Assembly (NCBI RefSeq): GCF_000174415.1
Contig: NZ_ACJM01000005.1
Location: 1-64,000 of the forward strand
Direction: 5' to 3'
Length of the DNA: 64,000 nucleotides
Source of the DNA: Dethiobacter alkaliphilus AHT 1
Lineage (GTDB): Bacteria; Bacillota; Dethiobacteria; Dethiobacterales; Dethiobacteraceae
Shown here: positions 12,852-37,925 of the stretch, piece after piece
How positions within the stretch are numbered: the first letter of the stretch is position 1
Layout of the letters: the number at the start of each line of letters is the position of its first letter
Translations under genes and position numbers: made by a program
The notes under the pieces: generated by a model
What the model was told of the DNA's origin: nothing
Seen by the model: only the letters and a program-made list of their open reading frames with translations
Databases searched by the model: none

Positions 12852-13006
12852 CTCTTATCAAGAGAAGGTGGAGGGACTGGCCCGATGAAACCCGGCAACC
12901 GGACACGCGTCGCGGTGCTAATTCCAGCAGGGAGTGAAACCCTGATAGATAAGAGAGGTTACTTCTCAAATAAGAACCTCTTTCATCGAAAGAGGTTCTT
13001 TTATTT
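12852..13006 (+). promoter_or_regulatory. SAM-I (S-box) riboswitch with terminator
   Basis: The aptamer spans 12852-12955. P1 is CTCTTATC with GATAAGAG, and the conserved cores GATGAAACCCGGCAACC and GGTGCTAATTCCAGCAG are present. A terminator stem AAGAACCTCTTTC / GAAAGAGGTTCTT (12972-13000) followed by TTATTT comes next. AGAGGTT (12953-12959), at the 3' side of P1, can instead pair with AACCTCT in the terminator, giving the usual antiterminator. High SAM should therefore stop transcription of metK. Confidence 0.97.
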
Positions 13007-19530: not shown

Positions 19531-19566
19531 AAACAGCGATGAAGTGATAACAGGGAGGTTTTGCAA

Positions 19567-20667
19567 ATGATAGATGTGGTGATTTTTGAAGGTAACGAAG
19601 CTCATAGCGCTGTGGAAGAGATGCTGATTTGTGCCCGGCGCGCAGCACTGCAGGATAATTTGGCCAAACTACTGTCTTTGCCCGAAGTGGGACGGGTGTT
19701 TTTGTCCACCAACCAGCCGGAGATTGCCGCCCTTGCCGGCAGTGAGGTACATATAGAGATGAATGAAGCGGCGCCGGCAGACTTTCATTTTGGCCGGGAA
19801 CTGCTGCGTTTGGTACAGAAGCATCAGATGCAGGCGGTGATATGCCTGGGGGGAGCGGCCCTGCCACTGGTACAACGGGAAGAATTGGCCGAAGCCTGCC
19901 GTCGCGTCCTGGAAAAGCAGGGTCGCTATGTCACCAATAATGTCCAGTCTGCAGACATGGTGGCTTTTAATCCCGCAGAGGTGCTGAGCCGGCATGAACT
20001 GCCTGCCACCGATAACGCCCTGGTTTTGCTTTTGCGCTATGATGCCCGTTTTGAGCAAAATCTGATGCCCACTACACTGGGAACCCAGTTTGATATTGAT
20101 ACACCATCAGATCTTTTGGTGCTAGCTGACTCCCCCTTCGGCGGGCCCCATTTGCGCAAAGCCCTTGATGAACTGCAGTTAGACACCACTGCTGTGAGAC
20201 GGCTCAAAGATGTTTTAAAAAGCAATTATCCCGACGTGGCCATGATTGGACGTATTGGCGCGCCGGCCATTGCCCGCATTAACCATAACTTTAAAGTGCG
20301 CCTGCGCATTTTTTCCGAGGAACGGGGCATGAAGGCCCTGGGACGGCTGGACAGAAATGAAGTGGTGTCGCTGTTGGGTTTTTGGCTGGAAGAAATAGGG
20401 CCGGACCGTTTCTTTTCCTATCTGGAACAAACGGTTGACGCCGCACTTATAGATACCCGGGTCCTGTTTGCCCATATGAAACAGCCCCTTAGCGATGCGG
20501 ACCGTTTTTATTCCGATCTGGGTGACTATGAAAAGGTGCAGAATCCCTTTGTCCGGGAATTTACCCGGGCTGCCACCCAAAGTAAAATACCAGTACTGTT
20601 AGGCGGCCATTCTCTGGTAACCGGCTGCATTTGGGCTTTCGTGGAAGAAATTGGCTGTATGATTTAG
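19567..20667 (+). CDS. Uncharacterised protein, possible NTP-transferase-like fold
   Basis: 366-residue soluble protein I cannot place with certainty. The first 180 residues alternate strands and helices (MIDVVIFEGN, VGRVFLSTNQPE, AVICLGGAALPLVQREE, YVTNNVQSADMVAF, GTQFDIDTPSDLLVLA). The DTPxDL-like ending recalls MobA-type nucleotidyltransferases, but the usual N-terminal GGxSxRMG loop is absent. The C-terminal half contains IGRIGAPAIARINHNFKVRLR and PVLLGGHSLVTGCIWAFVEEIG. GGGAGG eight bases upstream supports the ATG at 19567; an in-frame TTG is at 19561. A weak hairpin (TTCCTagttAGGAA) follows the stop. Confidence 0.7.
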   Translation: MIDVVIFEGNEAHSAVEEMLICARRAALQDNLAKLLSLPEVGRVFLSTNQPEIAALAGSEVHIEMNEAAPADFHFGRELLRLVQKHQMQAVICLGGAALPLVQREELAEACRRVLEKQGRYVTNNVQSADMVAFNPAEVLSRHELPATDNALVLLLRYDARFEQNLMPTTLGTQFDIDTPSDLLVLADSPFGGPHLRKALDELQLDTTAVRRLKDVLKSNYPDVAMIGRIGAPAIARINHNFKVRLRIFSEERGMKALGRLDRNEVVSLLGFWLEEIGPDRFFSYLEQTVDAALIDTRVLFAHMKQPLSDADRFYSDLGDYEKVQNPFVREFTRAATQSKIPVLLGGHSLVTGCIWAFVEEIGCMI

Positions 20668-20802: not shown

Positions 20803-21444
20803 TTGGCCGATGCTCCAAAGGAAATCAGGCTTGCTGAATGTGAGAACCTGATTAAACAGATACGCGATGTGATATCGGTAAATATTGTGCTCGGCGATAA
20901 TAAAGAAATCGAAGAGATTCATATCCTGGCGGAAGATACCAGAAACGCCAAACAATTGGTTCGGGATGTGGAAACTCTGCTTCGCGTCGAGTACGGGTTG
21001 GATCTTGATCATAAAAAAATATCCGTTGTTCAACTCAAAAACGAGCAAAAGCTTTTGCAGGACAAGCGTGTCAAATTTACAGCCATCCAGTATTCCCTGC
21101 AGGGGAGTCAGTTGGAAGCTCTGGTTGAACTTACCTCGGACAAGCGTTCCTGTCAGGGAAAAAGCTGCGGCGTAAATTCCAGTTCAAACCGGTTACGCCT
21201 CTTTGCCGAAGCTACCCTTAATGCGCTCAATGATTTTCTGGATTCCGGCACCACCGTGTTTCTTGAAGATGTGGTGCAATACCCAATGGGGAGGCGCAAC
21301 ATGATTTCCGCCGCCCTTACATATATGCAGGGTCCCAGCGAAGAGTATCTGGTGGGCAGCGCCCTGATTAAACAGGATGAAAAAGAAGCGGTGGTCAGAG
21401 CCACCCTCGATGCCATCAACAGACGCATTCCTATTGATATTTGA
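20803..21444 (+). CDS. Uncharacterised conserved protein upstream of HD-GYP gene
   Basis: 213-residue soluble protein with no family I recognise. It seems to be built of two alpha/beta halves. The first has NIVLGDNKEIEEIHILAEDT, resembling a small ferredoxin-like or ACT-like fold. The second has TTVFLEDVVQYPMGRRNMI and AVVRATLDAINRR. A middle segment contains two cysteines (SCQGKSCG). The TTG start follows GGAGGGG at 20791-20797. It lies just upstream of the structured micro-ORF locus and the HD-GYP gene, but shared transcription is uncertain. Confidence 0.7.
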   Translation: MADAPKEIRLAECENLIKQIRDVISVNIVLGDNKEIEEIHILAEDTRNAKQLVRDVETLLRVEYGLDLDHKKISVVQLKNEQKLLQDKRVKFTAIQYSLQGSQLEALVELTSDKRSCQGKSCGVNSSSNRLRLFAEATLNALNDFLDSGTTVFLEDVVQYPMGRRNMISAALTYMQGPSEEYLVGSALIKQDEKEAVVRATLDAINRRIPIDI

Positions 21445-21457
21445 CATTTATCATAGC

Positions 21458-21668
21458 AAAAAAAAGGGACCGACACTCTCCTTTAACCCCGAGCGAAGCG
21501 GTTTACCTGCCGTCATCTAGCGGACCACGGTAGAGGAAACCGTAAAGGGGGCTTTCTCAATGGCAAAAGTTATCCGTGCTATCGTAGCGCTGGCGACTCT
21601 CGTACTTGCTGGTGGTGCTGCTTTTAAGTGGTTCTAAAACCTTACTAAGAAGTCGGTCCTTTTTTTAT
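21458..21668 (+). ncRNA. Structured locus enclosed by long inverted repeat, with micro-ORF
   Basis: AAAAAAAGGGACCGAC (21459-21474) and GTCGGTCCTTTTTTT (21652-21666) are inverted repeats with one extra G, so the 3' arm is also a terminator tail. Inside, CTCCTTT (21478-21484) pairs with AAAGGGG (21544-21550), the ribosome binding site of a 25-codon gene. Between them CGGTTT/AAACCG and TGCCGT/ACGGTA form a further stem with a 13-base apical loop. The layout fits a regulatory leader or structured RNA. It matches no riboswitch class I know. Confidence 0.55.
21560..21637 (+). CDS. 25-residue hydrophobic micro-protein
   Basis: A very short gene beginning MAKVIRAIVALATLVLAGG and ending AAFKWF: one membrane-spanning helix with a Lys/Arg start and an aromatic end. 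AAAGGGGG (21544-21551) nine bases before the ATG is a good ribosome binding site, although it can pair with CTCCTTT upstream. The size and composition resemble type I toxin peptides or small membrane regulators, but I recognise no family. It is bounded by the long inverted repeat described for 21458-21668, and the HD-GYP gene starts 46 bases after its stop. Confidence 0.55.
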   Translation: MAKVIRAIVALATLVLAGGAAFKWF

Positions 21669-21683
21669 ATTTTGGAAGAGATT

Positions 21684-22937
21684 ATGTCATTTAAAGAAGA
21701 GCCACTTCAAATCAAAATATATATACTTTTCGTAACTTTGATAGGGCTAATTGTATTATATTCAGATCGCCCTGATTTTAGAGAGCTTGGCTTGCACTTT
21801 TTCTTGTTTGTAATCCTGTATATTATATTAGAGCACCTCGACGTACCTATTCCTCGCGGCCAAGGTTATGTATCGGTTAGCTATGCAATCAGCCTTGCAA
21901 TGTTAATCATTTTTGGCCCTACAGCAGCAGCCTGGGGAAGTGCTGCACTTATTTTCCACGTTAGAACATTTAAATTTTTCCGCACTAAACTTCACCGGAT
22001 GATTTTTAATGCTGCACAGATGGCTATTGCAACAAGAGTTGCTGGTGAAATTTTTGTCTTACTGGGTGGAACGGTTGGAAACATCTCTTTATCTATTGAT
22101 CTGCTGCCAATCACAATTAGTGTTTTTATATATCTTTTAGCGAACACTATGCTGGTAATGACCGTAATTTCTTTATCGGAGAAGCGGTCATTTCTTGGCG
22201 TCTGGTTGACCAGTTTTAGCTGGTCTGTGCCCAACCTTCTGGCAACTGCTTCTTTAGGTATCCTGATTGCTGCTGTACATCTTAACATAGGTTTTTACGG
22301 AGTCTTGATGCTATTAATACCGTTGATGGTTGCACGACACACATTTATTATGTATATTGACATGCGCAACCAATACATCAGCACTATTAAAGCATTAACC
22401 AAGGCCATCGACGCCAAAGATCATTATACTCACGGTCATTCGGAGCGGGTGGCACAATACACCGTACAGATTGCTCAGGAGTTAAAACTGCCGGAAGACT
22501 TTGTAGAGAAACTGGAGTACCTGGCATTAATGCATGATATCGGTAAAATCGGTATTCCGGAGCAGATTCTCAATAAGCCCAGCCGGTTGTCTGATGATGA
22601 ATTTGATCTGGTACGGTCCCACTCGGCAGTGGGGGCGGAGATTATCAGTAATATTAAATTTATCGGTGAGCATGCCGATATTGTGCGCCATCATCATGAA
22701 CGCATCGACGGACGTGGCTATCCTGATAACCTGCCGGGGGATAAAATGTCACTGGGAGCAAAGATTGTGGGTGTGGCCGATGCTTTCGATGCCATGACTT
22801 CGGAACGCATCTACAGTAATCCCATGAGTAAGCAGGAAGCTGTGGCCGAGCTGCGGCGCTGCTGTAATACTCAGTTTTGCGAACAGGTGGTTAATGCTTT
22901 TGTTAAAGTTTTGCGGCGCAGGGGGGAAATCGAGTGA
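21684..22937 (+). CDS. Membrane-anchored HD-GYP phosphodiesterase
   Basis: 417-residue protein. Residues 1-220 form about six hydrophobic helices of an integral sensory region. The C-terminal HD-GYP domain follows HTFIMYIDMRNQY. It has HSERVAQYT, H284-D285 in LMHDIGKIGIPE, HHHERIDGRG, and the signature G345-Y346-P347. HD-GYP enzymes hydrolyse cyclic di-GMP. The ATG at 21684 is chosen with GGAAGAG just upstream; an open extension upstream overlaps the micro-ORF. The DUF5317 gene starts in a 4-base overlap, so translation is coupled. A c-di-GMP riboswitch lies 16 kb downstream. Confidence 0.9.
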   Translation: MSFKEEPLQIKIYILFVTLIGLIVLYSDRPDFRELGLHFFLFVILYIILEHLDVPIPRGQGYVSVSYAISLAMLIIFGPTAAAWGSAALIFHVRTFKFFRTKLHRMIFNAAQMAIATRVAGEIFVLLGGTVGNISLSIDLLPITISVFIYLLANTMLVMTVISLSEKRSFLGVWLTSFSWSVPNLLATASLGILIAAVHLNIGFYGVLMLLIPLMVARHTFIMYIDMRNQYISTIKALTKAIDAKDHYTHGHSERVAQYTVQIAQELKLPEDFVEKLEYLALMHDIGKIGIPEQILNKPSRLSDDEFDLVRSHSAVGAEIISNIKFIGEHADIVRHHHERIDGRGYPDNLPGDKMSLGAKIVGVADAFDAMTSERIYSNPMSKQEAVAELRRCCNTQFCEQVVNAFVKVLRRRGEIE

Positions 22938-37768: not shown

Positions 37769-37784
37769 GAACGATAAAATGACA

Positions 37785-37925
37785 TTCGCTCAGGGCAAAC
37801 CTGTTGAAAGGCAGGGACGCAAAGCCAAGGGTCTAACACTGCAAAGCAGTCATGACAGCCGGTTGCCGAAGGAACGCCTGTTTAGGCCTGCTTTCCGCAC
37901 CGGAAGGACAGGTCTTTAAATTTTC
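37785..37925 (+). promoter_or_regulatory. c-di-GMP-I (GEMM) riboswitch with terminator
   Basis: The aptamer (about 37785-37875) shows the GEMM-I core: AGGGCAAACCTG, GAAAGGCAGGGACGCAAAGCC, GGGTCTAA and AGCCGGTTGCCGAAGG. A hairpin follows with AGGCCTG / CAGGTCT and CCG/CGG (37884-37914), then TTTAAATTTT, which looks like an expression-platform terminator. A second terminator is at 37948-37973. No reading frame of convincing size lies between it and uvrB at 38213. Confidence 0.9.

Follow-up and report, generated by a model that had tools for sequence, protein, structure and literature searches.

A conserved structured RNA around a predicted membrane microprotein gene, associated with MASE9/HD-GYP phosphodiesterase genes in Dethiobacter alkaliphilus and its relatives

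The type I toxin mRNAs of the AapA/IsoA and hok/Sok systems encode a short hydrophobic peptide, mask its Shine-Dalgarno (SD) sequence and pair their ends over a long range (PMC6733600). In odc1 (uORF-25-1) and other uORF motif RNAs, a structured leader holds the ribosome binding site in a stem and is followed by a short conserved ORF (PMC8632094, PMC11109978). The locus described here, found in a 64,000-nt stretch of the Dethiobacter alkaliphilus AHT 1 genome (hereafter the window), shows likenesses to both. As in the toxin mRNAs, a short hydrophobic peptide is encoded behind an SD masked by upstream elements and the transcript ends can pair; as in the uORF motifs, a structured leader with the ribosome binding site in a stem and a short conserved ORF precede a fixed main gene. 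However, unlike AapA or hok, the unit is single-copy, lies within an operon, occurs across phyla and is tied to an HD-GYP gene; its end stem encloses the gene without itself masking the SD, and no antisense RNA is known. It also differs from odc1 and the other uORF motifs in structure, peptide, hosts and neighbour, and carries an extra conserved stem that closes around the ORF. No described family for the unit was found in the open-access papers searched, which is not proof of novelty; the texts listed there for the string AGCGGAGCGG are all unrelated, and no relevant MASE9 paper was found.

In the whole unit (21459-21666, plus strand, like all the features below), a 15-bp long-range stem surrounds a 25-codon ORF with its structured leader. 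The unit is preceded by a gene encoding an uncharacterised 213-aa protein (20803-21444; hereafter the DUF gene). The 5' arm of the stem, AAAAAAAGGGACCGAC, lies at 21459-21474, and the 3' arm with its U-tract, GTCGGTCCTTTTTTT, at 21652-21666, 14 nt past the stop codon of the ORF. The arms are separated by 177 nt and form 15 contiguous pairs, including one G-U, as expected from the inverted repeat that an earlier note on this DNA had placed around the locus. The same note put the locus just before an HD-GYP gene; indeed, the downstream gene starts at 21684 and ends at 22937, and its product, a c-di-GMP phosphodiesterase, combines MASE9 (Pfam, 5e-10) and HD-GYP (HD_5, 7.7e-35) domains, with HDIGK and HHE..DGRGYP visible in its sequence.

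The 25-residue hydrophobic peptide that had been proposed from the letters alone (MAKVIRAIVALATLVLAGGAAFKWF, 21560-21637) belongs to a set of 80 homologous CDS of 19-32 aa, which share a basic N-terminus, a hydrophobic helix and a small-residue motif, LAGGA, often followed by a tryptophan. Differences between these CDS fall at codon positions 1, 2 and 3 in proportions of 31, 14 and 55%, and pN/pS is 0.33. The peptide is therefore very likely translated and selected as a protein, and selection appears to keep charge, helix, GGA and terminal W across phyla, not particular codons. The net charge ranges from +1 to +5, any acidic residue being found in only 3 of the 80 peptides, and a strongly hydrophobic 15-residue stretch is present in 74 of them. 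The microprotein is thus predicted to be cationic and in most cases membrane-spanning. Of the six peptides whose hydrophobic stretch is weak, five come from one group (f25: L068, L071, L072, L075 and L080), whose 19-20 aa products, for example VKKVMRIVARLLSGGSNYIW, are devoid of the LAGGA membrane segment; they may bind the membrane as amphipathic helices instead. As these loci, in which the arms of the enclosing stem are a G-run and a C-run, keep both the leader RNA and the HD-GYP gene, the membrane anchor does not seem indispensable. A scan of 22 of the peptides against Pfam and NCBIfam gave nothing significant. MgtS, AcrZ and CydX are small regulatory membrane proteins that act by binding a larger partner in the membrane. 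Like them, the microprotein is a predicted single-helix peptide within the range of about 20-50 residues, and an action on a larger membrane protein is proposed here; unlike them, it matches no family, and its proposed partner is an HD-GYP phosphodiesterase.

A BLASTN search with the 215-nt unit recovered the element from most genomes of the family to which the window belongs. A covariance model built from 22 leaders (R1) gave essentially one match per genome across the phylum; a broader one (R2), run on a phylum-wide sample of 398 genomes from 271 genera, detected the RNA in 53 of the genomes and 43 of the genera, again with one match per genome. A public genome collection was also scanned with the upstream 213-aa protein, which yielded 452 relatives, of which 80 loci were kept. 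Carriers and relatives include Dethiobacter MAGs, Geosporobacter, Alkaliphilus, Carboxydocella, Desulfosporosinus, Thermincola and Symbiobacterium, as well as MAGs labelled Armatimonadota and Actinomycetota. Peptide and leader, of which the earlier note had allowed that neither might be conserved, are thus clearly both conserved. All the strong model matches that were checked sit between the DUF and HD-GYP genes. Two model matches that have neither neighbour (G113, locus L085, and G183, locus L195) were set aside as false positives. Two other loci, L089 and L090, have no peptide or motif array and were rejected likewise. Among 25 further R2 loci, 24 have both neighbours, and a recognisable peptide was obtained automatically in 23 of these 24.

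The element is strictly associated with the HD-GYP gene. This gene lies directly downstream of the 213-aa gene's locus in 62 of the 80 loci, and the element is present in all 62, 59 of them by model or located CDS and three (L148, L154 and L159) by eye. Conversely, only four loci with the upstream gene and enough sequence lack the HD-GYP gene (L114, L134, L146 and L165), and the element is found in none of them; in L114, the upstream gene runs straight into secA, HD-GYP gene and element both being absent. For independent loci, an assumption that does not hold here, the chance of such a split would be about 1e-6; Fisher's test on the automatic calls alone gives p = 5e-5. Since the element is missing exactly where the HD-GYP gene is missing, the two probably work together. 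Five loci from several lineages (L130, L127, L132, L136 and L153) have two consecutive HD-GYP-like ORFs past the element.

This distribution bears on the proposal, made in the earlier note, that the locus resembles a type I toxin mRNA, in which an antisense RNA and the pairing of the ends would keep a toxic membrane peptide silent. The anatomy is indeed that of AapA-type mRNAs, with a hidden SD, paired ends and a short, hydrophobic and cationic peptide (PMC6733600), but the unit is found as a single copy at a fixed operon position across the sampled families and other phyla, and gave no match among plasmids and phages, whereas a patchy, multi-copy or mobile distribution is typical of type I toxins. 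Furthermore, the antisense promoter-like site does not exceed chance expectation, and its -10 box overlaps the start of the HD-GYP gene, where the sequence of relatives is different. The locus is therefore unlikely to encode a classical type I toxin, and the probability left to this reading is very small. A mobile element or MITE-like repeat was also considered and rejected: the unit has a single genomic copy and is syntenic, and its structure is kept through covariation, not through an unchanged sequence.

The 218-nt unit folds at -71.4 kcal/mol (z -2.7), lower than 199 of 200 shuffles, and the hairpin formed by CGGTTT/AAACCG and TGCCGT/ACGGTA, already named in the earlier note, belongs to the minimum-energy fold. 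The leader alone has an unremarkable folding energy (z -0.9), so the case for its structure rests on comparative evidence. Three helices can be delineated. P1 joins the SD to CCCC or its substitutes; in the window, CCCC (21487-21490) pairs with positions 21547-21550 of the SD AAAGGGGG (21544-21551). P2 (21498-21543) pairs GCGGUU (21498-21503) with AACCGU (21538-21543), and P3 (21506-21535) is a hairpin, CCUGCCG/CGGUAG-A-G, with a bulged A at 21534. In an alignment of 72 distinct leaders, which was fitted to the model and so favours structure and in which one or two rows are doubtful, 92% of pair cells are standard, both sides have changed in 15 of 16 pairs, and the covariation scores of P1, P2 and P3 were reached by none of 500 shuffles. 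An independent alignment (A4) has 98% of cells paired and five doubly changed pairs, against 2.1 in shuffled alignments. Both sides of P1 have changed in four of its four pairs, with 87% of cells paired in the 72 distinct sequences; all seven pairs of P3 covary, with 97.6% of cells paired and the bulged A conserved. P2 is mostly conserved within the family and covaries in the wider set. In one subgroup (f3), P2 is not obvious and the CCCC of P1 is absent.

The earlier note had proposed that the leader hides the ribosome binding site through CTCCTTT (21478-21484). This stretch can pair with AAAGGGG, but relatives lose the pairing, and the conserved partner is the CCCC at 21487-21490, immediately 5' of AGCGAAGCG. 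The masking itself is supported by the covariation of P1. Moreover, shuffling the 5' part of the leader makes the SD more accessible in 65 of 80 loci (mean 0.26 in the native leaders vs 0.37 in the shuffled ones), the occlusion being a shift and not absolute (median rank 0.28). Desulfosporosinus-type leaders have lost P3, and their SD is covered by an unrelated helix (GCGGU..AACC with GGUUUACCGC) that adjoins AGCGAAGCG repeats. On this comparative evidence, the leader is a conserved structured RNA predicted to pair the SD.

The invariant nucleotides of the leader are dominated by AGCG. In the first 29 aligned leaders, AGCG.AGCG and the AGCGG of the loop are invariant, and the A that follows AGCGG is nearly so. 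These correspond in the window to AGCGAAGCG (21492-21500), which reads AGCGRAGCG in relatives and is present in that form in 67 of 80 loci, and to UAGCGGA in the apical loop (21518-21524). A 140-nt leader contains AGCG 3.85 times on average and a shuffled one 0.65 times; single leaders have one to six copies, at variable spacing. The combination AGCGRAGCG...AGCGGA is found once in the window (0.01 expected) and once in the genome.

The leader could be a riboswitch that senses a small molecule or a second messenger: its fold is compact and covaries, it has nucleotides that are both invariant and unpaired, and it is directly linked to the SD. Like the c-di-GMP-I and c-di-GMP-II riboswitches, it is a structured RNA beside a gene of c-di-GMP metabolism, here a c-di-GMP phosphodiesterase gene, and a c-di-GMP-I riboswitch exists elsewhere in the window. 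However, neither c-di-GMP model matches at the microprotein locus. More generally, none of the 4227 families of Rfam 15 has a covariance-model match at the locus in the window and 15 relatives; even at loose thresholds no known riboswitch emerged, Flavo-1 reaching 12.6 bits for a cut-off of 42. The gene that goes with the RNA is also always the same single one. The number and spacing of the AGCG copies vary, and one lineage has retained the AGCGAAGCG repeats alone with a new SD helix. Since the motifs vary in copy number and survive replacement of the leader, they look more like protein-binding sites than like a ligand pocket, and a riboswitch is improbable. Two riboswitches lie above the Rfam cut-off in the window: the c-di-GMP-I riboswitch just mentioned, at 37784-37870, away from the microprotein locus, and a SAM riboswitch at 12852-12955.

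A known protein that could read such sites is CsrA, which would control the leader at GGA-containing motifs near the occluded SD, as in other CsrA-regulated leaders. GGA is indeed found in UAGCGGA and often in AGCGGAGCG, and csrA is present in 22 of 30 RNA-bearing genomes. It was not found, however, in the other 8 of these 30 carriers, some of which are about 97-98% complete. In addition, the first motif is often of the GAA type (AGCGAAGCG, including in the window) and hence without GGA, and the invariant part consists of AGCG half-sites, not of ANGGA. Control by CsrA fits these data poorly and is quite improbable.

The enclosing stem was the second structural element proposed in the earlier note, as a closed domain with paired ends, and it is found well beyond the window. 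At the window locus, the shuffle test gives p<=0.005, and of the 66 loci to which it was applied, 60 have a stem at p<=0.05. The median score of an arm with its own partner is 33.5, against 19.0 when partners are swapped between loci. The same stem column holds GC, AT, TA or CG pairs in different loci, and entire arms diverge together, as in GGGGGGGC/GCCCCCCC and TTGAAGCCGGCAG/CTGCCGGCTTCAA. The stem is thus conserved by compensatory change. Its 3' arm usually starts about 2-30 nt from the stop codon of the peptide. That this arm acts as a terminator, as had also been suggested, holds in part: a U-tract follows it in the family of the window, and a T5 run past the stop is found in 34 of 80 loci (9.1 expected) but is absent in 46. 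A terminator role is therefore plausible in those lineages, not in general. No conserved promoter was seen on either strand. A stand-alone transcript with its own promoter was considered, but relatives such as L039 and L046 have lost or altered the TTGACA-like sequence ahead of the 5' arm, which makes read-through from the upstream gene more likely; some relatives have the arm right behind the stop codon of that gene.

These features also suggest an attenuator, in which translation of the short ORF would act only in cis by deciding whether the enclosing stem forms; the stem would stop transcription or isolate the start of the HD-GYP gene, and the peptide would have no function after synthesis. 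The proximity of the stop codon to the 3' arm (14 nt in the window), the U-tract of the family with its overall enrichment, and the position of a conserved ORF ahead of the same main gene in the checked loci all agree with it; no stall motif was recognised. However, more than half of the loci have no T5, there is no run of regulatory codons, and selection bears on amino-acid chemistry across phyla rather than on particular codons. An attenuator is therefore rather unlikely, while keeping some credit.

The favoured reading, which has about an even chance of being right, combines a translation-repressing leader, AGCG motifs read by a factor, and a microprotein partnering the HD-GYP enzyme. We infer from the comparisons above the translational repression, the trans-acting factor and its nature, the insertion of the peptide into the membrane, and the partnership with the enzyme, be it physical or functional. 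In the resting state, the leader would be folded with its SD paired and the ends of the unit would form the closing stem, so that the peptide would not be made; in those lineages where a U-tract follows, transcription could also stop at the stem, ahead of the HD-GYP gene. A trans-acting factor, presumably an RNA-binding protein (a small ligand being less likely), would read AGCG(G/A)AGCG and UAGCGGA and shift this balance. The product would be a cationic single-helix membrane microprotein working with the adjoining MASE9/HD-GYP phosphodiesterase, for example by binding the membrane sensor of the enzyme.

The 213-aa protein encoded upstream has no match above cut-off in Pfam or NCBIfam, but is widespread, its 452 relatives being spread over several phyla. 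In its AlphaFold model (pLDDT 87), a beta-alpha-beta part at the N-terminus is followed by a (beta3-alpha)2 part; this predicted C-terminal half resembles the regulatory domain of LeuA (E 2e-6, TM 0.42), and the model also gives weaker matches to dsRBD and PUR repeats. In Thermincola (L125, 3001-4492, and L079), the 213-aa gene is tandemly duplicated and the RNA is found only after the second copy, beside the HD-GYP gene. A 368-aa ORF (19561-20667), located between a raiA-like gene and the 213-aa gene, has no Pfam or NCBIfam match.

A bolder version of the favoured reading can be put forward tentatively, its probability being around one in a few: the unit would be a new class of regulatory RNA in at least three phyla, its AGCG(G/A)AGCG motif would be read by a novel RNA-binding protein, conceivably the 213-aa product, and the microprotein that it switches on would be an obligatory regulatory subunit of the MASE9/HD-GYP enzyme. 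The locus itself would add a phylum-spanning RNA family and a microprotein family, neither of them in Rfam, Pfam or NCBIfam, and provides a candidate regulator for the membrane HD-GYP enzymes, a large group about which little is understood. It is unusual for a conserved stem to close around a whole short gene within an operon, and this would offer a testable gating model for the production of tiny membrane proteins.
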